This document shows positions 1,728 to 22,712 of a stretch of 64,000 bases of DNA, in pieces. A program made the position numbers and the translations under genes. Location of the stretch: NCBI RefSeq assembly GCF_003337435.1, contig NZ_QPJS01000001.1, positions 202,513 to 266,512 of the forward strand, read 5' to 3'. This DNA is from Schleiferia thermophila. Lineage in GTDB: Bacteria; Bacteroidota; Bacteroidia; Flavobacteriales; Schleiferiaceae. Under the pieces are notes generated by a model. It made no database searches. It was not told the DNA's origin and saw only the letters and a list, made by a program, of their open reading frames with translations. The number at the start of each line of letters is the position of its first letter. Positions within the stretch are counted from its first letter, which is position 1.

Positions 1728-2630
1728 CTATTCCAGGTAGAGTATTTTTATGTTGTCCAACAAAAATTCAGTTGAGCCGGAATTAGGGTCTGCTTTTACT
1801 GCTCCAAAAAAAATCTGATAGTCCAAAGCATTAACATTTCCAGAAATTTCCGGTGTCAGGTCAATATAAATTTTTCTCCACTCTCCGGGTGTTGGTCGAA
1901 TTTGTACAACAGGAGCTTGAACCAGTCTGTCAAATAAATGAGCAAATACACCGACCGTAAATGGTTGATTACCTGTGAAATTCATTTCCAGAAACACCTT
2001 GTTACCGCCCTTTGGTAAAACATATCTGTTGGATGTGGCAATTTCAACCAGTGTCTGTCCGGGTGGAAGCACTACCTTGCCTGATGCGGAATTGTGTTCC
2101 GGTCGTTGCAAATTTCTGAATATGCTATCCTGGTGCGTCACTTTTACTATATCCGCGTCCGATTTATCGGTTCGTTGCAACGATATGCCGACTCCTTCAA
2201 AATCTTCAACCAATAGTACCTTGGCATTTGTACGATATCTGGCTCTGGGTAGAGAATCTGTTTCTGGTTCAAAGTAGTAGGTTTCTCCTGGTTTGAGGTC
2301 AAATGTTGTATTTGTTACTTCCAACATTGGGTATACATCCCGCATGGAACGAATTCCATTCACCGATATTCCATACCTCACCTGGACTGATTGGTTTCCT
2401 GAAAATGGAATTATAATTCTGGCAGGCAATTCGTACACTCCCAATTCCCTGTTTTCTAAAGTAACCCAGGCGCTGTTAATGGCATGTGAAGATGTGCCCT
2501 GAGTGATGTAGTCGGTTTCCATCACTACATCATCTATGACCAGATATGACGGTATGGTGGCTTTTTCAAATTGACAGGAGGCAAATCCTGATAGTACAAT
2601 AATCAAAATGGAAATAACTCGTAAAATCAT
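1728..2630 (-). CDS. Putative lipoprotein of unknown function in a polysaccharide cluster
   Basis: A 300-residue protein with a short hydrophobic leader ending in a lipobox (GFASC, Cys at about residue 19), so it is probably lipid-anchored. I do not recognise a named family. The body looks all-beta and repeats a hydrophobic/polar alternation (for example VWLDN-like stretches, EFLLDNIKILYLE at the C-terminus). The last ~120 residues (KVFLEMNFTGNQPFTVGVF ... RKIYIDLTPEI ... LDYQIFFGAV) resemble a carbohydrate-binding-module-like jelly roll; this is inference. The start ATG overlaps the TGA stop of the upstream oxidoreductase by four bases (ATGA), so translation is coupled and the two are in one operon. 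The context suggests a role in surface polysaccharide handling, but nothing catalytic is visible. Confidence 0.8.
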   Translation of the reverse strand: MILRVISILIIVLSGFASCQFEKATIPSYLVIDDVVMETDYITQGTSSHAINSAWVTLENRELGVYELPARIIIPFSGNQSVQVRYGISVNGIRSMRDVYPMLEVTNTTFDLKPGETYYFEPETDSLPRARYRTNAKVLLVEDFEGVGISLQRTDKSDADIVKVTHQDSIFRNLQRPEHNSASGKVVLPPGQTLVEIATSNRYVLPKGGNKVFLEMNFTGNQPFTVGVFAHLFDRLVQAPVVQIRPTPGEWRKIYIDLTPEISGNVNALDYQIFFGAVKADPNSGSTEFLLDNIKILYLE

Positions 2631-6727: not shown

Positions 6728-9145
6728 TTACAAATGAATGGTGGCATTTAGCAAAAAGTTTTGCGTAGCCTGGGGGAAAAAATAGGCAGTTCCATCAAAC
6801 ACATATCCGTTGGATGCATAGAGGTTTGAAAAAATGTTGTTGATAAACAGATTCAACGTAAATTCTCTGCACCAAGTGACAGGAATCCGACCAGAGATGC
6901 GTATGTCAGTCACATGGTAGGGATTTAAACTAAGTGCCAAATCGCCGGTGTTGTCCAGGTATTGTCTACCTACAAACCGATGAATCAGCGCTGCATTGAA
7001 GTAATTTGAAAAATACCTTGTGATGCCCCCTTGAACAATTTCGCCGGCTGATAGAGCAATGGGGGTGTTTCCAAGTGAGGTAATCAAAGTGTCGTTGACA
7101 GGTTCTTTCCAGTCAATATTGATGTGTCTGGAAAGTGCAAGGTTGGCAAAAATCTCCCATTTGCCGGTCCTGTAATTTCCAACGAACTCGATTCCCGTGC
7201 GATAACTCCTACCTACATTCTTTCTCAATGCGAATCCTACATCCGAAAATTCGCCGGTGACGACCAACTGATTAAAATAGTCCATGTAGTAAGCATTGGC
7301 TTCGAGGGTCAAATTGCTTTTAGAAATCCTAGTACCCAGTTCGTAATTGATGAGAGTTTCGGGCTGAGGTAGGTCTTCGTTTTCTAGATAGTCCCTTCTA
7401 GCTGGCTCTCTGTTGGCCACAGCTATTGAAGCATATGCTTCCACAGTAGGTGATAGTTTATATAATATACCTGCCTTTGGATTGAAAAAGTCAAGTCTGT
7501 CGTCGATGCTTATATTTCGTAGATTTCTGTCGATACCTTGACCGACATAGGTCACAGCTCTATACTGAAGGTCACCGTAGAAGAAAAGATGTTCTGAATA
7601 CTGGTAGTCAGCTCTGACATATGATGTAAAATCCCGTTTCCTCGCATCGTTAAAGTAAAATCTTTGATATGGTGCCAATTCACCTGAATATCGCGCCCAG
7701 AGAATCTCACCAAAATGGTCTCCTATGTAGTTGTAGTACGACACTCCTCCGACCACATTCCATCCACCCGAATGGTATCTTATATTGGCTGTTCCCACAT
7801 AGAGGTCATTGTCAAGCCAAAGCCTGCGTATCAGATCAGTTCTTCTTATGGTATCCGTTCCGGAGACCATTGGTGGAAGGTTGTATCGGTTCAGTCGGTC
7901 GTTTTGGCGAAATTGTTCATAGAATCCGGCTCCTTTCGTATAATTTCCTGTAATTTGAAGCGTCCAGGATGGATTAAACGTATGTCTTAAATGAAGCTGA
8001 AAGTGCTGCTGACCGTAATTATCCACTTCATCTCTGTAAAAATCAATGACTTCTCCATCAGGGCCAAATTTGGCACCGGCGAAATTAAATCTTCTGCCTA
8101 ATGTGCTGATGGATGCACTGTCGAGGCCATACCATGCCTGATAGGTGATTTCCCTGCCACCAAATGTAACTAATTTAAATGAGGTCTTTTTACCCAGCCA
8201 ATTGAGGTTAAACATCCAGGATTGCAGATCGCTGGAGGCTCGGTCCATATATCCATCACTTTGAATACGGGAGATTCTTCCATCCAGTGACCAGCGATTC
8301 AGAAGTATTCCGGTGCCAAATAGTGCACTCAATCTTCTTGTATTGAAACTGCCTCCGCCTAATATAATCTTAGCAAATGGGTCTTTTTCAGCTTCATTGG
8401 TTTCGATATTTATGCTTGCCCCAAAAGCTCCGGGGCCATTTACTGAAGTTCCTACACCTCTTTGAATTTGGATGGAATTGACTGACGAAATCAAATCCGG
8501 CATGTTTACCCAGAAGACCCCTTGGCTTTCGGCGTCGTTGATCGTCACCCCATTGATGGTTACATTAATTCTCGTAGGATCACTGCCTCTGATCCGAAGT
8601 CCAGTATACCCGATGCCTGCTCCAGCATCCGAAAAGGATACCACACCAGGTACATTTTCCAAGGCCACCGGAATGTCGCGTCCATCGTTGAGCTTAGTGA
8701 TTTGTTCGCCATCTAGTTTGGTTTGAGTTACGGGGGTGGTGCTCAGTGCTCTGTAAGCCAGTACATCCACGGGATTTAGTTGTGTGGCCAATGCCTCCAG
8801 CAGAATGGTGATATCTCCTTCAGACCAGGCAATATCAACTTTTTTGGTACTATATCCATCTGCTTCCAGGATGACTGTCGCTTTGCTGAAAAGTCTTGTC
8901 AAACAGACTTTGCCGACATGATCTGATGGCAGTCGCTCTCCGGTAGATGGGACGAAAACTGATACACCCTCTAAAGGTTGACCGGAAGAGGCATCTTTGA
9001 TTGCAAGACACAGACCTGATTGACCTTGTGCTTTCAGGAGAGAACCGAAAAACAGGGCTAAAAGAAGTGCCCATGCCCTTATAGAAAGGGCCACAGTAGA
9101 TATACCTGATATCCACTGCACACTGTACCGTTGTAACTTTCTCAT
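6728..9145 (-). CDS. TonB-dependent outer-membrane receptor, TPP-riboswitch controlled (probable thiamine-type importer)
   Basis: An 805-residue outer-membrane beta-barrel transporter energised by TonB-ExbBD. After a long signal peptide (hydrophobic ISTVALSIRAWALLLALFF) comes a carboxypeptidase-regulatory-like domain (~45-115: IKDASSGQPLEGVSVFVPST). The plug (~125-245) contains DIPVALENVPGVVSFSDAG, LRIRGSDPTRINVTINGV and IQIQRGVGTSVNGPGAFG. The rest is a barrel ending in the expected aromatic strand (FFPQATQNFLLNATIHL). The plug resembles siderophore/vitamin receptors of the FecA/CirA type, which alone would suggest iron. But a TPP riboswitch directly precedes the gene, which points to thiamine or a thiamine precursor as ligand (inference; TPP-controlled TonB receptors are known in Bacteroidota). 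No pnuT or thi gene is adjacent. Confidence 0.9.
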   Translation of the reverse strand: MRKLQRYSVQWISGISTVALSIRAWALLLALFFGSLLKAQGQSGLCLAIKDASSGQPLEGVSVFVPSTGERLPSDHVGKVCLTRLFSKATVILEADGYSTKKVDIAWSEGDITILLEALATQLNPVDVLAYRALSTTPVTQTKLDGEQITKLNDGRDIPVALENVPGVVSFSDAGAGIGYTGLRIRGSDPTRINVTINGVTINDAESQGVFWVNMPDLISSVNSIQIQRGVGTSVNGPGAFGASINIETNEAEKDPFAKIILGGGSFNTRRLSALFGTGILLNRWSLDGRISRIQSDGYMDRASSDLQSWMFNLNWLGKKTSFKLVTFGGREITYQAWYGLDSASISTLGRRFNFAGAKFGPDGEVIDFYRDEVDNYGQQHFQLHLRHTFNPSWTLQITGNYTKGAGFYEQFRQNDRLNRYNLPPMVSGTDTIRRTDLIRRLWLDNDLYVGTANIRYHSGGWNVVGGVSYYNYIGDHFGEILWARYSGELAPYQRFYFNDARKRDFTSYVRADYQYSEHLFFYGDLQYRAVTYVGQGIDRNLRNISIDDRLDFFNPKAGILYKLSPTVEAYASIAVANREPARRDYLENEDLPQPETLINYELGTRISKSNLTLEANAYYMDYFNQLVVTGEFSDVGFALRKNVGRSYRTGIEFVGNYRTGKWEIFANLALSRHINIDWKEPVNDTLITSLGNTPIALSAGEIVQGGITRYFSNYFNAALIHRFVGRQYLDNTGDLALSLNPYHVTDIRISGRIPVTWCREFTLNLFINNIFSNLYASNGYVFDGTAYFFPQATQNFLLNATIHL

Positions 9146-9208
9146 GATTAATTATTTAAATTAATCACAAGTAACAGGGGCGGTTACCCGTGTGCATCAC
9201 TTGTAAAA

Positions 9209-9305
9209 GAACCATGACTCCCTTGGCAGCATTACCTGCCCAGGTTCAATGGGTGTAATCTCAGCCAAGGTATCGCGCGCCTACCTTAGCACCCCTTAAG
9301 ATTCG
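9209..9305 (-). promoter_or_regulatory. TPP (thiamine pyrophosphate) riboswitch, THI element
   Basis: Read on the minus strand, the element has the hallmarks of the THI box. GGGGTGCT opens P2, which closes with ACACCC. A P3 hairpin AAGGTA/TACCTT follows (around 9268-9287). The invariant GGCTGAGA has CTGAGA at 9264-9259 and binds the pyrimidine ring. P4/P5 contain ACCTGGGCAGG and AATGCTGCCAAGGGA (9233-9219), the pyrophosphate-sensing arm. It ends about 65 bases before the TonB-receptor ATG at 9145. The spacer contains competing short hairpins (GTAAC/GTTAC, ACAAGT/ACTTGT) that could form the expression platform. With TPP bound, expression is expected to fall. Confidence 0.92.
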
Positions 9306-9390
9306 CCGACAAAGCTATGTTGGTTAAGCGAATGTTTATCGGTAAATTTTTTAAACAAAAAGTAAAAACATTTTTTTAAAATATCAAAAT

Positions 9391-9428
9391 AAAAAAACCG
9401 CCTTTTGTTCTGGGAATAAGGCGGTTTT
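9391..9428 (-). terminator. Intrinsic terminator of the rplM-rpsI-rpsB-tsf operon
   Basis: An 11-bp stem (9394-9404 with 9418-9428, core ACCGCCTT/AAGGCGGT) with a 13-base loop is followed, on the minus strand, by a run of seven T. It lies 27 bp after the tsf stop. Confidence 0.88.
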
Positions 9429-9454
9429 ATTTTCGTGAACGGACTTCTGCAGAA

Positions 9455-10276
9455 TTATCCTAAAGCTATTCTTTTAAATCCGGTAACTGTGAGTCCTTTA
9501 TGAACAGTTTCTAAATATTGAGCAACGGTCATTTTACCCTCTTTCATAAATTCTTGTTCCAGGAGTGTATTTTCAGCAAAGAATTTTCCAAGGCGGCCTT
9601 GAGCGATTTTTTCTATCATATTTTCAGGCTTTCCTTCCTGACGTGCAAGTTCTTTTCCTATTTCCAATTCGCGATCAATGATCTCCTGGGGTACTGAATT
9701 TCTGTCGAGGGCCATTGGATTCATTGCTGCTACCTGCATGGCGATGTCTTTGGCAGCTTCCGGAGCAGGTGCTGACAGTGCAACGAGCACTGCTATTTTT
9801 TTGTTGTGATGAATATAGGAGGCCACATAAGTGCCGTGAAGAGTAGCATACCCTACAAGATCGATTTTTTCTCCAATTACTCCTGTTTGCTCGATGAGCT
9901 TATCTGCCACAGTTAGATTTTCATAGGGGAGGTTTTTTAAAGATTCCACATCTGAAGGTCTATGTGCAATAGCGATATCCAGGATGCTCTGGGTTAATTG
10001 TACAAATCCATCGTTTTTAGCCACAAAGTCTGTTTCGCATCCCAGTGCTACAATAGCTCCGAAGGTATTTTCAGAATTGATTGCCGCCAAAGCACATCCC
10101 TCTGAGGTAGTTCTGTCTGCTCTGTTGGCAGCTACTTTTTGTCCCTTTTTTCTAAGGATATCAATAGCTTTTTCAACATCGCCCTCTGCTTCCATAAGGG
10201 CTTTTTTACAATCCATCATTCCAGCCCCGGTGATTTTCCGAAGGTTATTAACGTCAGCAGCTGTTATGTTTGTCAT
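9455..10276 (-). CDS. tsf: Translation elongation factor Ts
   Basis: A 273-residue guanine-nucleotide exchange factor that recharges EF-Tu with GTP. It begins with the UBA-like N-terminal domain: TAADVNNLRKITGAGMMDCK, then KALMEAEGDVEKAIDILRKK. The TDFVAKN motif (~residues 80-86) contacts the EF-Tu nucleotide site. Two dimerisation subdomains follow, with VASYIHHNKKIAVLVAL and the C-terminal EQEFMKEGKMTVAQYL. Length fits the family. It is the last gene of the ribosomal cluster, 105 bp after rpsB. That gap holds a hairpin that could tune tsf relative to rpsB, and a terminator follows the gene. Confidence 0.97.
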   Translation of the reverse strand: MTNITAADVNNLRKITGAGMMDCKKALMEAEGDVEKAIDILRKKGQKVAANRADRTTSEGCALAAINSENTFGAIVALGCETDFVAKNDGFVQLTQSILDIAIAHRPSDVESLKNLPYENLTVADKLIEQTGVIGEKIDLVGYATLHGTYVASYIHHNKKIAVLVALSAPAPEAAKDIAMQVAAMNPMALDRNSVPQEIIDRELEIGKELARQEGKPENMIEKIAQGRLGKFFAENTLLEQEFMKEGKMTVAQYLETVHKGLTVTGFKRIALG

Positions 10277-15209: not shown

Positions 15210-18200
15210 ATGAAAAACAATTACTTTGGAGTATCTATCAGGGCATTTTTCTTTTTGATAGGTCTTTTAACGCTGAGCAATCATGTGCGGGCACAGACCT
15301 ATTGCATTCCTACCAGTTCTTGTGCTTCCGGTGATCAAATTGATAATTTTTCTACTACCGGTGGAGTGACCAATATTAGCAATCTCAACTCCGGTTGTTC
15401 GCCAAATGCATATCAGTTTTTTTCAAATCAAATTGTGACCGCCCTTCCAGGCACTCAAATCAATTTTACTGTCCAGTCAGGGCCAAGTTGGTCACAAGGC
15501 TTCAGAATTTGGGCAGACTGGAATAACGATGGTGATTTTAACGACCCCGGTGAAGACTTGTGGAATTCGGTAACCTGGGCAACTACCCCATTTTCCGGAA
15601 ACTTTACCATCCCTGTGGGCACACCTCCGGGAAATATCCGGTTAAGAGTCAGATGTAATTACGTAGCTGTACCTTCAGATCCATGTGCAGCTCAAACTTT
15701 TGGAGAAACGGAAGACTATGTCATAAATGTACTGCCGACTTCACCCTGTACCTCACCTCCTCCGGTAGCCACTACCGTGGCTTCCGATACTTCAGTTTGT
15801 CCGGGGGCAACTGTCAATTTTTCGTTGGCCAATATCACATTTGGTGCCGGTCAGACCTATCAATGGCAGTCTGCATCTTCATCTACCGGTCCCTGGACGG
15901 ATATTACCGGTGCTACTTCACCTTTTTACTCTCAGGCTGTTTCCACTACGACTTGGTTTAGATGTAATGTTACCTGCGGTTCGGCCACGACTGCCTCCAC
16001 ACCGAGACAGGTTGTCGCATCAGGTAATGTTTTTAGCGGCACATATACAATTAATCCAAATGGCACCGGAGCGACCAATTTTATATCTTTCACAGCTCTG
16101 GCCAATGCCTTGGCCTGTGGAACCGTAACAGGCCCCGTTACCATCAATGTAGTACCCAACTCCGGACCCTATAACGAGCAGATTGTTTTGCCCTTTGTTC
16201 CAGGAACCTCCCCAACAAATAAAATCGTCATCAACGGAAACAATAACATACTCCAATTCAACGCCATCGATGGAAATAACAGACATACCATCGAGCTCAA
16301 TGGTGCAAAACACTTTGAATTTAACAATCTGCAGATACTTTCTACAGGGGCTACATTTGGGCATGCACTTGAATTTAGAAACAGTGCCGACTCCAATAAA
16401 TTTACAGGATGTGTCATCGGGCATGCTGATATCGAAAACACATCCTTTTCAACAGGTGCAATAGTTTTTACCAATTTAAAGACTACTTCTACAGGCCAAG
16501 GTAACAATGGTAACTTTAATGAATTTGTCAACAACACCATCCAGGGTGGCTATTACACTATATCCTTGAATGGAACATCAACCACTCCAAATATAGGAAA
16601 CAAATTCATTAACAACATCATCCGAGAAAGTTATATATATACTGTGTATGGGGCAAATACTGAAGATCTCGTATTTGAAGGAAATGAGTTTCGTAGAACT
16701 GACAGAAATTCTCTGACGACTTGTTATTACATGTATTTCTGGTCTTCATTTAACAGAGGCCTTCGAATTGTTGGCAATAAATTTCATGCACCTTTTGCCC
16801 AAAATACATTATCGACCCTGTCTTTTTACGGAATATGGTTATCAGCGGCATCTGATGATACATCAAAAATTAACCTTATTGCCAACAATGTCTTCTACAA
16901 CATTCGTACTAATGGTCTGGCGTATACAATTTATCATACTGCATCACAGGGAAATACAGACTATGTGCACAATACAATTTCTGTCAACAACCCTCAGTCT
17001 ACGTCAGCATCAGCAAACCGACTTGTATTTATAAGTACAACACCCGCTAATCTGCGAATAGTAAACAATGTGTTCACTTGTAACAGAGGTGGATCCGGAC
17101 AAAACCATTTGATTTATCTTTCAAGCAGTACGTACACCCCTATCATCAATCACAATGTTTATTTCATAGACACGATTGGCGCGTCAAATTTCATTGGCTT
17201 CAGAGGCACAAACGTCAAAACCTGGAGCAACTGGCAATCCGTAGCCTCAGGAGCTTTTGATCAAAACGGAGCATATGCCAATCCAATTTATGAAAATGAA
17301 AATGCAGGAAACTTGAGACCGATCAACCCTGTAATCAATAACATTGGATTGAATCTCACCTCTATAGTTCCAGTCGACATCAATAATGTAACAAGGTCAT
17401 CCACTCCCGACCCTGGTGCTTATGAATTTACACCCCTCCCGGGAGTTGATGCTGTGCTAACAGCATTTATCTCGCCAGTACCTGGTAGTGGATGCTCGGG
17501 TAACATTGCTGCTTCCGTAAATTTGAGTAACTACGGCCAAACTACACTTACCTATGCCAGAATTCAGTGGTCAGTAAATGGTGTGTTACAATCACCTGTT
17601 GCCTTTACTGGCAGTATTCCCACTGCAGCAAATCAGGTAGTTTCTCTTGGTACTTTCCCGGTAGTAGCTAATCAGACCTACAATTTGGTTGCTTATGTCG
17701 ACAGTGTGGCACCTGGTACAGATGCCAATCCTTCAAATGATACGACTTCCACCACCTATCAGACAAGCGGATTATCAGGGGTTTATACCATAAATGCCGG
17801 CCAGCCTGCTTCTGCCACTAACTTTCAATCATTCAATGCTTTGGCTTCTGCTCTCAACACATTTGGTGTCTGTGGTCCAGTCACTGTTAATGTCGTTGCA
17901 GCTTCTGGTCCTTACAACGAACAAGTTCAATTCAATCAGGTCATAGGCGCCAGCCCTGTGAACAGGATCACAATCAATGGCAATGGCGATACTATCAAAT
18001 TTGATGCGACAAGCAGCGCTTCGAATTATGTGATCAGACTTAACGGAGCTGACTTCTTTACCATCGATAGCTTAAACATAGTTGCAACGAATGCTTCAAA
18101 CAGCTGGGCACTGCATCTGACCAATGGTGCAGATCACAATATCATTCGCAAGTGTCAGATTCTGTGTCCAATAAACACCACCTTCAACAATGTCGCTATA

Positions 18201-21200
18201 GTCATTTCTGGTAGTAATACCAGTTCTACAACGTATGGACCATCAGGCAACTACAACCTTATTGAAAATAACACGATAATAGGTGGTTATTATGGTATTA
18301 CCTTAATGGGTCTTAGCTCCGCATTGGGAGGTGAAGTATTAGGAAATAAAATTCTGAATAACAAATTTTTAGATTTCTATTTATATGGACTGTATGCGGC
18401 CTCTCATGACAGCCTTGAAGTAAGTGGTAATGAATTTGCTCAACCCACCCGGACAACATTCTCTACCTATTACGGAATATTTTTAGCAGGTGCTATCCGC
18501 AACTCCAGAATAATCGGTAATTTGATTCATCAAATCTATTGGGGAGCAACTACACCTCCTACTAGCAGTGTATATCCTATTTATATTTCCGCTCTTAATA
18601 GTCCCGGAAATTGGAATGTACTAGCCAACAATATTGTTAAAGATATCAGGAGTAATGGACTTATTTATGGTCTTTACTTCTTGTCATCCAGCAATTACTG
18701 GAAAGTGTATCACAATACCTTTGCCATCTATACGCCGACCTCTACCACAGGTTCAGCTACTCGTGTTATTTGGCATTCAACAGCCAACGACAGTATCCGA
18801 TACTTCAACAACCTAATTTATCTCATGAGGGGCGGATCTGGGCAAAAGCATGTCTTTTATTTGAACAATGCTTCTAGCCGTCCCTTAATCAATCACAATG
18901 CCTACTTCATCCATGATTCTGTTGGTACCAACTATTTCTTTGGATGGAGGGGATCCAATGTCAACACATTTTCAGACTGGCAGAGCCTGGCTAGCAATGC
19001 CTTTGACCAACAAGGAAGATATGCCAATCCAAATTTCGTCAATCTTTGGGCAGGTAATGTTCAGCCAACCAATGTGCTTTTTAATGGAATGGGAGCAAAT
19101 CTCTCCGCATGGGTGCCTACCGATTTCTTTGGAGTCCCAAGAGGAGCATTTCCGGATGCCGGGGCGATCGAATTTAATCCACCTCCCGGTCCAGATCCTG
19201 CTATAGTATCCTTCCTTCAGCCGACTGGAGCTATCTGTGATACATTCGCCACAGCTCAGGTTCAGATAGCCAACCTTGGCCTAGATACAGTAACTTCTCT
19301 TACAATTGGTTGGACTGTAGATAACGTTCCTCAAACACCCGTATCATGGACTGGAATATTAGCCAGCTCTCAATCGGTTAATATTACACTTGGTACTTTC
19401 AATATACCCGCCAATGCCACCGTAGATCTGACTGCCACCATCACAGCCAGTGGCCCTGGTGTAGATACAGATCCATCCAACAATACCTTGAACAAAAACG
19501 GTGTTCGTAGAAGCTTGCAAGGTACCTACACCATAAATGCTTTCTCAGCACCCTCTGCCACCAACTTCCCAAGTTTTACCGATTTTGCTTCAACTCTTAA
19601 TCAGGTGGGAGTTTGCGGTCCGATAACCGTTAATGTTGTGACCGGTTCAGGCCCATACACAGAGCAAGTATATTTTAAAACAATTCCAAACTCCTCCCCA
19701 GCCAATACGGTAACACTGAAAGGCAACGGTGAAACCATCTCCTTTAATTCGACCAATACCGACAAAAGAGCCATTATTGGTTTTGAAGGTACCAAAAACT
19801 TTGTCATCGACTCGCTCAACATAGTTTCCAACGGCACAACCTCTCAATTTGCCACAGGAGTATTTATCACAGGAAATGCAGAAAACATCACCATTAAAAA
19901 TTGTTCGATCGTGATGCCCAACAATTTTACCAATCTCAATTACAATGGTATCATCGCCAGCGGAGTCGAATCCAGTGTTACAGCAATTGGAAAGGTGTGT
20001 GACAGAATTACTATTGAAAACAATTTCATCTCCGGAGGCTACAATAATATTTACATCGGAGGTAATACTGTAGCTGCAGGTCCATATGTTGTAGGATTAA
20101 AAATCAACAACAATGTATTGGCAGACGCCTACATCTATGGTATCTTCCTTCGGGGTGTAGATAGTCTTGAGATACATGGCAATGATTTACATAGATTGAA
20201 CAGGCAAACGGTTACTACCTATTATGGAATCTATGTTACCAATGAAATCAGAAATTCCAAGATCACCAACAACCGAATAAGAAATACACATGCATCTGCA
20301 AGTTCACTGACAGGATCTGTGTTTGGGTTTTATAATTTTACATCTACTGGAAATCCAAATAATCGTAACCTTTTTGCCAACAACTGGATGTATGGTTGGG
20401 AAAACACAGGATTCAATTACGGATTTTACCTATCCAGTTCAAGTAACTGGAATGTATATCACAATTCCATTTCAATCGAGCATTCTACCACTGGTACCGG
20501 AGGCGAATATCTCATCTACCTACTAGGTACAATGAGCGATATTGATTTCAGAAATAACCTTATTACCAGCAGCCGTCCAACCACAGGAACAAGCTATATG
20601 ATTTATCAGTCTTCTACTGTAACTAATATTACCTACAACAACAATGCGTACTGGCGACAAACCAATTCAACCAATGCATTTTTCGGTTTTAATGGGACAA
20701 ACATCAACACTTTTGCAAATTGGCAATCATCTACCGGTAATCCTGATGCAAATAGTCAATTCGGACAACCCTTTTATGTAAATCCAACAGCAAATAACTT
20801 TACACCAGGTTCACCACAGTTTAATAACATAGGCGCCAACCTGTTATCCGTAGTTCCTACAGACATAAATGGTATAGCCAGAACAGCAACACCTGATCCG
20901 GGAGCGGTTGAATTTGTGCCTCTTCCCTGTACAGGGCCATTCAATTTCGTACTGGTCAGTACAACGCCTACCTCAGCGACTCTCAACTGGGGTAGCTTCG
21001 ACAACAATCACCAAATTGAGTGGGGACCAGTCGGATTTACTCCCGGTTCATTACAAGGCACATTGATTACCAATATTACGACCAAACCCTACACTGTCAC
21101 AGGCTTGACATCGAATGTCTGTTACGACATGTATGTTCGTGACAGTTGCGGTCCAAATCAATACAGTCAATGGGTAGGTCCGGTTACTGTGTGTACACCT

Positions 21201-22712
21201 ATCGCTTTCGATGCAAGTTTGGAAGCCCTTGTAAATCCAAAGAATGGTCAGTGTGGAGATAGTGTAATGGATGTAAAAGTAGTAGTACATAATCTCGGAG
21301 CCAATACCATCACCAATGTACCGGTAACCTGCCAGATTACCGGTGACATTAATCAGACCTTTAACTCTACCATCAGCTCTTTGGCACCCGGAGCCAGAGA
21401 TACCGTAACTTTTGGTGCGATTAACGGTTATCAGGGTTTGAGCTTAAACATCCTAAGCTATACCTCTTTGCCAAACGACCAGGTAACCTCTAACGACTCC
21501 CTCAACCTGGTAGTATTCATCAAACCCAGAGATCCGGTTGTGTTGCCTTACACCGTTTGCGCCGGTGTCGATACGGTTACACTTATAGCTAAACCAGGAC
21601 CTGGTCTGCTGTATGAGTGGTATGACCAACCCACCGGAGGTACGCTACTGTCTACATCCGATACGTTTTTTGTACCTTCTATTTCCACCAAAAACGACTA
21701 CTACCTGCAGTACAAACAAATCTCCGGCGATTCAGCTTCAGCTACCCATGGCCCTCTGATCCAAAGTGCAGGTACATTTATCAATTCTCCGACATCTTTC
21801 AGCCCATGTCCCGGAATTCTCAAAATTCCAGTGCCTAATGGAGCTGTTATCGACTCCGTACGGATTTCTTATCAAATTACGGCGACCGGAGGAGGTTGGA
21901 TTTCTGAGCAACTATCAAGAATCAGAGTAGTGAACAACAATGCAGCAGAGCCTGTAGTAACCGGTCCTTCAATTACAACAGGAGGAACCCAAAACTACAG
22001 TAGGACACTTACCATCGCCAATGGACAAATCAATGCAGATACACTGACCCTTGAGTTACATGTTGGCCGTACATGGCCTGATGGAGGTACCGGTCCGTGC
22101 AACGATCTGTACCAATTCGTACCAGCTAATACTTTTACAGCTACGGTGTACTATCAAGGTCAGGCATGTTCGCAGGTACGAACACCGGTGATTATTACAC
22201 CTACTCCCTTGCCTACCGTGTCTTTTACATATAACCAACAGCCAACCAGCTATACAGTAACATTCAACGGTACAGCTACTGATGCTGATTCGGTGCTTTG
22301 GGACTTTGCAGGATTGGGCACTGCCAGCACTCTGAATGCAACATTCACCTTCCCTCAGAATGGCTCCTACACGGTTTGCTTCACAGCTTTCAATAGCTGT
22401 GGAACTGCTACCAGCTGTGATACACTCGATTTCAAAGTATCTATAGCCGAAAACCTGCTCGGCAGCTTCCTAAAGATCTATCCTAATCCCAACAGTGGAG
22501 TATTCGAAGTTACCTTCAGCGACGATCTGGCCTCTATGCCCGTGGAAATAGTCGATCTTACCGGAAAAGTAGTGTATCGGAATGAATGGATTAGCGCCGG
22601 CGGATACTTCAAAGAGGTCATCAAACTTAACAATATAGCAGCAGGTACATACATGATACGTGTGTACTCATCTGCAGGTGTCATCAACCGTAAGGTGGTC
22701 ATCGGAAAATAA
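15210..22712 (+). CDS. Giant secreted multi-repeat protein with GEVED, beta-helix, PKD and T9SS type A sorting domains
   Basis: A 2500-residue exported protein. Order: signal peptide 1-29 (ending HVRAQ); GEVED domain ~30-178 (GFRIWADWNNDGDFNDPGED, ending FGETEDYVINVL); Ig-like segment ~180-270; three homologous parallel-beta-helix modules at 277-740, 857-1322 and 1438-1902. Each module opens G(T/V)YTIN...ATNF and closes PD(P/A)GA-EF. The modules are separated by ~116-residue CARDB/Ig-like linkers. Then come a fibronectin-III-like domain (~1907-1990), another CARDB-like region, Ig-like and jelly-roll-like stretches, a PKD domain (~2335-2415) and a T9SS type A sorting domain (2421-2500: LKIYPNPNSGVFEV ... 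INRKVVIGK). It should cross the outer membrane by T9SS and be attached or released at the surface. The role is likely adhesion or polysaccharide binding. No catalytic residues are evident, but beta-helix lyase activity cannot be excluded. Confidence 0.92.
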   Translation: MKNNYFGVSIRAFFFLIGLLTLSNHVRAQTYCIPTSSCASGDQIDNFSTTGGVTNISNLNSGCSPNAYQFFSNQIVTALPGTQINFTVQSGPSWSQGFRIWADWNNDGDFNDPGEDLWNSVTWATTPFSGNFTIPVGTPPGNIRLRVRCNYVAVPSDPCAAQTFGETEDYVINVLPTSPCTSPPPVATTVASDTSVCPGATVNFSLANITFGAGQTYQWQSASSSTGPWTDITGATSPFYSQAVSTTTWFRCNVTCGSATTASTPRQVVASGNVFSGTYTINPNGTGATNFISFTALANALACGTVTGPVTINVVPNSGPYNEQIVLPFVPGTSPTNKIVINGNNNILQFNAIDGNNRHTIELNGAKHFEFNNLQILSTGATFGHALEFRNSADSNKFTGCVIGHADIENTSFSTGAIVFTNLKTTSTGQGNNGNFNEFVNNTIQGGYYTISLNGTSTTPNIGNKFINNIIRESYIYTVYGANTEDLVFEGNEFRRTDRNSLTTCYYMYFWSSFNRGLRIVGNKFHAPFAQNTLSTLSFYGIWLSAASDDTSKINLIANNVFYNIRTNGLAYTIYHTASQGNTDYVHNTISVNNPQSTSASANRLVFISTTPANLRIVNNVFTCNRGGSGQNHLIYLSSSTYTPIINHNVYFIDTIGASNFIGFRGTNVKTWSNWQSVASGAFDQNGAYANPIYENENAGNLRPINPVINNIGLNLTSIVPVDINNVTRSSTPDPGAYEFTPLPGVDAVLTAFISPVPGSGCSGNIAASVNLSNYGQTTLTYARIQWSVNGVLQSPVAFTGSIPTAANQVVSLGTFPVVANQTYNLVAYVDSVAPGTDANPSNDTTSTTYQTSGLSGVYTINAGQPASATNFQSFNALASALNTFGVCGPVTVNVVAASGPYNEQVQFNQVIGASPVNRITINGNGDTIKFDATSSASNYVIRLNGADFFTIDSLNIVATNASNSWALHLTNGADHNIIRKCQILCPINTTFNNVAIVISGSNTSSTTYGPSGNYNLIENNTIIGGYYGITLMGLSSALGGEVLGNKILNNKFLDFYLYGLYAASHDSLEVSGNEFAQPTRTTFSTYYGIFLAGAIRNSRIIGNLIHQIYWGATTPPTSSVYPIYISALNSPGNWNVLANNIVKDIRSNGLIYGLYFLSSSNYWKVYHNTFAIYTPTSTTGSATRVIWHSTANDSIRYFNNLIYLMRGGSGQKHVFYLNNASSRPLINHNAYFIHDSVGTNYFFGWRGSNVNTFSDWQSLASNAFDQQGRYANPNFVNLWAGNVQPTNVLFNGMGANLSAWVPTDFFGVPRGAFPDAGAIEFNPPPGPDPAIVSFLQPTGAICDTFATAQVQIANLGLDTVTSLTIGWTVDNVPQTPVSWTGILASSQSVNITLGTFNIPANATVDLTATITASGPGVDTDPSNNTLNKNGVRRSLQGTYTINAFSAPSATNFPSFTDFASTLNQVGVCGPITVNVVTGSGPYTEQVYFKTIPNSSPANTVTLKGNGETISFNSTNTDKRAIIGFEGTKNFVIDSLNIVSNGTTSQFATGVFITGNAENITIKNCSIVMPNNFTNLNYNGIIASGVESSVTAIGKVCDRITIENNFISGGYNNIYIGGNTVAAGPYVVGLKINNNVLADAYIYGIFLRGVDSLEIHGNDLHRLNRQTVTTYYGIYVTNEIRNSKITNNRIRNTHASASSLTGSVFGFYNFTSTGNPNNRNLFANNWMYGWENTGFNYGFYLSSSSNWNVYHNSISIEHSTTGTGGEYLIYLLGTMSDIDFRNNLITSSRPTTGTSYMIYQSSTVTNITYNNNAYWRQTNSTNAFFGFNGTNINTFANWQSSTGNPDANSQFGQPFYVNPTANNFTPGSPQFNNIGANLLSVVPTDINGIARTATPDPGAVEFVPLPCTGPFNFVLVSTTPTSATLNWGSFDNNHQIEWGPVGFTPGSLQGTLITNITTKPYTVTGLTSNVCYDMYVRDSCGPNQYSQWVGPVTVCTPIAFDASLEALVNPKNGQCGDSVMDVKVVVHNLGANTITNVPVTCQITGDINQTFNSTISSLAPGARDTVTFGAINGYQGLSLNILSYTSLPNDQVTSNDSLNLVVFIKPRDPVVLPYTVCAGVDTVTLIAKPGPGLLYEWYDQPTGGTLLSTSDTFFVPSISTKNDYYLQYKQISGDSASATHGPLIQSAGTFINSPTSFSPCPGILKIPVPNGAVIDSVRISYQITATGGGWISEQLSRIRVVNNNAAEPVVTGPSITTGGTQNYSRTLTIANGQINADTLTLELHVGRTWPDGGTGPCNDLYQFVPANTFTATVYYQGQACSQVRTPVIITPTPLPTVSFTYNQQPTSYTVTFNGTATDADSVLWDFAGLGTASTLNATFTFPQNGSYTVCFTAFNSCGTATSCDTLDFKVSIAENLLGSFLKIYPNPNSGVFEVTFSDDLASMPVEIVDLTGKVVYRNEWISAGGYFKEVIKLNNIAAGTYMIRVYSSAGVINRKVVIGK
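16038..17429 (+). repeat. Beta-helix module 1 of the giant T9SS protein
   Basis: Residues 277-740. It opens GTYTINPNGTGATNF, contains GPYNEQIVLPFVPGTSP and short N-rich turns (INNIIRESYIYTVYG), and closes PDPGAYEF. Homologous to modules 2 and 3 at a period of 1740-1743 bases. Diverged at the DNA level, so an old internal duplication. Confidence 0.85.
17778..19175 (+). repeat. Beta-helix module 2 of the giant T9SS protein
   Basis: Residues 857-1322. It opens GVYTINAGQPASATNF, has GPYNEQVQFNQVIGASP in register with module 1, and closes PDAGAIEF. The preceding ~116-residue linker is CARDB-like (IQWSVNGVLQSPVAFTGSIP). Confidence 0.85.
19521..20916 (+). repeat. Beta-helix module 3 of the giant T9SS protein
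   Basis: Residues 1438-1902. It opens GTYTINAFSAPSATNF, has GPYTEQVYFKTIPNSSP in register with modules 1 and 2, and closes PDPGAVEF. The linker before it (IGWTVDNVPQTPVSWTGILA) matches the linker before module 2, so the duplicated unit is helix plus linker. Confidence 0.85.

Follow-up and report, generated by a model that had tools for sequence, protein, structure and literature searches.

A gene for a TonB-dependent receptor that stands among housekeeping genes, preceded by an RNA element resembling a TPP riboswitch, raises the question of what the receptor imports and how it is controlled. The receptor, of 805 residues, is encoded at 6728..9145 (-) of the 64,000-nucleotide stretch of Schleiferia thermophila DNA that we analysed (hereafter the window), and its domains, together with the association of THI aptamers with its relatives, lead us to propose that it is a receptor for thiamine or thiamine phosphate. 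Domain searches located a CarbopepD_reg_2 domain at residues 49-126, a plug at 135-243 (PF07715) and a barrel at 352-771 (PF00593). Upstream lie rpsI, rpsB and tsf, downstream the convergent mnmE with holA beyond; both the minus-strand TonB receptor and the lack of an adjoining thi gene or thiamine transporter agree with the initial annotation of this DNA.

Using the TPP riboswitch covariance model (RF00059), we found a match at 9306-9201 on the minus strand with a score of 43.7 bits (E 2.4e-7). It spans model positions 1-105, i.e. the whole model, it is the sole RF00059 match across the whole 2.6-Mb genome (99.8% complete), and the first gene after it is the receptor. The predicted membership of the TPP family is upheld by this whole-model match, although the score falls under the Rfam gathering cut-off of 54.3 bits, and for that reason a default Rfam scan of the window did not report the THI element. 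A covariance model of the variant form described below (R1) scored the aptamer, 9201..9306 (-), at 76.3 bits, a value to be read in light of the window sequence itself being part of the R1 training set. The CUGAGA of the J3-2 T-loop, the pyrimidine sensor, is intact at 9264-9259, as had been annotated, and GGGG at 9292..9295 (-) forms the 5' strand of P2. Just 5' of the aptamer, TAGCTTTG at 9310..9317 (-) is a candidate Bacteroidota -7 promoter element by the consensus TAnnTTTG, and similar motifs were also found 5' of aptamers in relatives. Further sub-threshold matches at about 9350-9500, among them rliE and RefA9, were discarded as chance hits in the AT-rich terminator region after tsf. The distance from the end of the element to the start codon, estimated earlier at about 65 bases, is 73 nt when counted from A9219 to the ATG at 9145.

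The element had also been described as full, which it is not: its arm, AATGCTGCC/AGGGA, has no internal loop, whereas canonical elements read ...GCCGGCGTAGGGA. The P4-P5 arm, CCTGGGCAGGTAATGCTGCCAAGG, occupies 9221..9244 (-) and folds as (((.(((((......))))).))), compared with ((((..((((......))))..)))) for canonical arms. The 3x3 J4/5 loop is replaced in the variant by an additional base pair (G9240-C9225 in the window) and a 1x1 G.A mismatch (G9241.A9224); in thiM numbering, the loop of G60 A61 U62 and C77 G78 U79 becomes G60 opposite an A plus one extra pair. The pyrophosphate sensor, J4/5 with C77 and G78 left unpaired, was not found in the window aptamer. In Escherichia coli thiM, G60, C77 and G78 occupy highly conserved positions and interact with metal; of the three, G78 alone touches the pyrophosphate directly (PMC3764141). 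P2, P3, the CUGAGA pyrimidine sensor, J2-4, the UAAU of L5 and the 5' leader position are all shared with the TPP riboswitch (RF00059), from which the window aptamer differs in its missing J4/5 pyrophosphate-sensor loop and in its sub-threshold score. The HMP-PP (thiS motif) riboswitch (PMC6478431), also an RNA of thiamine metabolism, is unrelated in architecture.

Alignment of 30 variants revealed that the structure is paired in 98.9% of cells, versus 88.8% after shuffling and at most 58.8% after sliding. The P4-P5 pairs were kept at 99.2%, with two-sided changes at six of the eight, and the extra pair was present in 29 of the 30 sequences (GC 19, AU 5, CG 3, GU 1, UA 1). CUGAGA was invariant throughout, as were the equivalents of G60, U59 and A80, and the canonical C-G was retained in all 27 aligned canonical arms. 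The window aptamer is a non-canonical THI element with a strongly covarying extra pair where the J4/5 loop would be. Our literature search, in which subscription literature was covered incompletely, returned no report of an aptamer variant without J4/5; measured against the literature searched, the loss of the pyrophosphate sensor is new, and the same holds for the strict pairing of variant with receptor and for the CCCC hairpin found across the phylum, both described below.

We then asked which genes follow such elements. THI matches were present in 54 of 60 relatives, mostly one per genome, and exceeded the Rfam cut-off in only 14 of the 60, so that default Rfam scans miss the variant on account of its odd structure. 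The next gene after the 59 elements examined was a receptor homologue in 46 cases; two elements ended at a contig end, and the remaining 11 preceded seven thiC-type operons, three methyltransferase-ThiL-like cassettes and one pnuT. When the search was instead begun from the receptor and run across Bacteroidota, a THI-like leader element was found at 78 of the 80 named homologues. The pairing of THI element and receptor is a phylum-wide trait, and it supports the earlier claim that a THI-family element controls this gene. The canonical elements of the three cassettes (L034, L051 and L056, in genomes G003, G018 and G024) are followed by a methyltransferase, an AIRS/ThiL paralogue, a TMP-TENI paralogue and a Trm112p-like protein, and these genomes lack thiC; genome G016 has related genes, and the cassette may serve thiamine salvage or make a thiamine-like product. 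At L060 and L061 (G027 and G028), a receptor under a canonical element is directly followed by an NMT1/THI5-like substrate-binding protein.

For an unbiased sample we took only loci found by their RNA rather than by the receptor. Under a classification that left L165 in neither class and in which L180, L223 and L224 were assigned by hand, 40 of 41 variant elements in this sample preceded a receptor and one ran off its contig, while canonical elements stood before receptors in some cases and otherwise before thiC operons or other genes. A variant covariance model run against 296 genomes of the order gave the same picture: among its best 30 matches, all 29 with readable downstream sequence preceded a receptor. 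Canonical aptamers before other genes occur in genomes that also bear the variant (G003, G018, G024, G038, G041 and G054); in G003, for example, L034 and L035 are canonical and L036 is a variant. On the receptor tree the aptamer form changes at least eight times, and therefore does not stem from a single event. Close receptor relatives may differ in form, as with G002, whose canonical aptamer sits beside the window's clade.

Between aptamer and ATG, the window leader contains a 10-bp stem-loop, CACGGGTAAC-CGCCCCU-GTTACTTGTG, at 9166..9192 (-), with the CCCC of its loop at 9180-9177. A second hairpin, GATTAATT...AATTAATC at 9146..9166 (-), adjoins the start codon, and many relatives have a similar GATAA...TTATC-ATG arrangement. 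CCCCT was present in 44 of 72 receptor leaders with variant aptamers (4.1 after shuffling) and in 28 of 48 with canonical ones (2.8 after shuffling); it was found in none of 11 non-receptor leaders with canonical aptamers. In 60 of 81 cases, against 25.9 expected, CCCC lay inside a hairpin loop, on stems that differ widely. The CCCC-loop hairpin is common to leaders of both aptamer forms across Bacteroidota and probably serves as the expression platform. CCCC complements the P2 strand GGGG, which is invariant, and folding of the window leader predicts a GGGG-CCCC pairing, which we propose to be mutually exclusive with P2; covariation is not visible for this pairing because both sides hardly vary.

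Which ligand the altered aptamer recognizes was weighed between two readings. The variant may still bind TPP by way of a compact rebuilt site made up of the G60.A mismatch beside U59-A80 together with Mg2+; the affinity may be lower, which might suit an uptake gene. To this we assign a chance somewhat short of even. The invariance of the G60, U59 and A80 equivalents argues for it, as do the interchange of aptamer forms on the receptor tree and the expression platform that both share; against it, the residue that contacts pyrophosphate is deleted, C77 is paired, and all 27 canonical arms aligned have the C-G. Alternatively, and we advance this tentatively, the variant has switched ligand and, without a pyrophosphate pocket, senses unphosphorylated thiamine or TMP, i.e. 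the imported and not the activated vitamin. The altered loop is where the conserved, pyrophosphate-touching thiM positions fall (PMC3764141), and a covarying pair with a G.A mismatch has taken its place; the same genomes keep canonical aptamers before other genes, and every variant with readable downstream DNA precedes one gene family. This reading is tempered by the repeated changes of form, including swaps between close receptor relatives, and by the hairpin common to both forms, since interchangeable aptamers suggest a shared or closely related ligand. A broader proposal, that a widespread Flavobacteriales variant has lost its pyrophosphate pocket, senses thiamine or TMP and controls only thiamine receptors, in hosts many of which have a NadR-like kinase and ThiL and no TPK, is possible though rather doubtful as a whole. 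Binding of a different ligand by the variant would mean that a riboswitch among the most studied has changed its ligand naturally; should TPP binding persist, the pyrophosphate loop would be dispensable, against the usual picture.

We next considered the thiamine status of the organism. Its genome encodes seven Transket_pyr (TPP-enzyme) proteins, so TPP is needed, and it encodes ThiL (306.9 bits); genome profile searches gave no match to ThiC, ThiD, TMP-TENI (ThiE), TPK_catalytic or TIGR01378. From these presences and absences we predict a thiamine auxotroph without thiamine pyrophosphokinase. Thiamine uptake by the receptor is therefore well supported as a prediction, and of the substrates suggested in the initial annotation, thiamine is favoured by the element pairing, while HMP is unlikely: it would be unusable without ThiD and ThiE, which leaves thiamine or a phosphate ester as the useful substrate. 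The annotation had also placed the matching permease elsewhere in the genome, and the single PnuC/PnuT-family protein (G000:C1:843308-843832, G000 being the window's genome), about 630 kb from the receptor, fits as candidate. At this locus (L102:3465-4836) the gene of an XRE/LexA-like regulator overlaps pnuT, and in G001 a gene of similar size overlaps the pnuT start.

ThiL on its own requires TMP. A candidate for the step from thiamine to TMP, missing where bacteria have ThiL and neither ThiE nor TPK, is a NadR-RNK-like kinase present in one copy (G000:C5:17271-17795). Neither it nor PnuT is linked to the receptor in this genome. In relatives, pnuT lies immediately 5' of the kinase gene in 30 genomes and the kinase immediately 5' of the aptamer-receptor unit in 22, and one or other of these arrangements accounts for 41 of the 48 kinase genes. 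Of the 10 genomes with strong ThiE, 8 lack the kinase; among the 49 others, 46 encode it (Fisher p 3e-6, uncorrected for kinship). A second AAA_28 protein (G000:C4:104090), which almost every relative has, was set aside because it shows hardly any alignment to the PnuT-linked kinase. In G038 the kinase linked to PnuT forms one protein with DUF4301 (PF14134; L117:4769-6889), which hints at a thiamine role for that domain.

The main rival to a thiamine kinase is nicotinamide riboside kinase activity, PnuT and the kinase then serving nicotinamide riboside salvage unrelated to thiamine. The kinase is homologous to the kinase domain of NadR (PDB 9x6f, 8x7f, 6gye, 1lw7), a P-loop kinase by sequence that likewise has a Pnu transporter as partner. 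Unlike NadR, the protein is stand-alone, without an adenylyltransferase domain. We regard this rival as unlikely: the kinase is linked to the THI aptamer-receptor unit in those 22 genomes, its distribution is largely complementary to that of ThiE, and next to pnuT in relatives it fills the slot that in Bacteroides thetaiotaomicron belongs to the pyrophosphokinase gene tnr3 (PMC5613172). Thiamine is its proposed substrate; our literature search, incomplete for subscription literature, returned no reported NadR-like thiamine kinase.

Control of a thiamine-uptake receptor by a THI-family riboswitch is, as a kind of system, already known. OMthi (BT2390) of B. thetaiotaomicron is also a TonB-dependent receptor under a THI element with PnuT as inner-membrane partner (PMC5613172), and the window's receptor resembles it in plug, barrel and a leader THI element, here of variant form. 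Unlike OMthi and pnuT-tnr3, which set the precedent for the pathway (PMC5613172), the window's receptor stands alone in a genome without tnr3 and without the biosynthesis genes tested. We consider it probable that this auxotroph controls a thiamine-uptake receptor by negative feedback through an altered THI-family riboswitch, with PnuT, the kinase and ThiL acting downstream. In this scheme the receptor would take thiamine or a phosphate ester through the outer membrane and PnuT would move thiamine inward; the NadR-like P-loop kinase would probably phosphorylate it to TMP, and ThiL would convert TMP to TPP. As for the direction and level of control that we infer, plentiful vitamin would close P2 (GGGG with ACCC), freeing the CCCC-loop hairpin and shutting the start-codon region; when the vitamin is scarce, free GGGG would pair with CCCC and expression would rise. 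Transcripts of the predicted thiamine transport operons of B. thetaiotaomicron were unchanged by thiamine (PMC5613172), which counts against this model.

That the protein is an iron-siderophore, haem or B12 receptor bearing the element by chance is very improbable: the siderophore subfamily TIGR01783 is its best NCBIfam match, but at 92 bits this is far under the cut-off of 223.5, and, with the THI element paired with the receptor in 46 of 59 and 78 of 80 cases, the evidence is much stronger for a role in thiamine uptake than for one with siderophores. Weakest of all is a decaying, non-functional riboswitch remnant, which the sub-threshold score might suggest and which is hardly credible given the preserved, doubly changing P4-P5 pairs and the comparison with G001, where the aptamer core is nearly identical and the CCCC-hairpin block almost unchanged between genomes whose receptors are 70% identical. 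The THI element and CCCC hairpin together offer a sequence handle for thiamine receptors now annotated as iron-related.

Elsewhere in the window, 15210-22712 (+) encodes a secreted 2500-residue protein with GEVED, Ig-like, PKD and T9SS C-terminal sorting domains, and a 300-residue open reading frame at 1728-2630 (-), without Pfam or NCBIfam matches, lies in an exopolysaccharide-type cluster.
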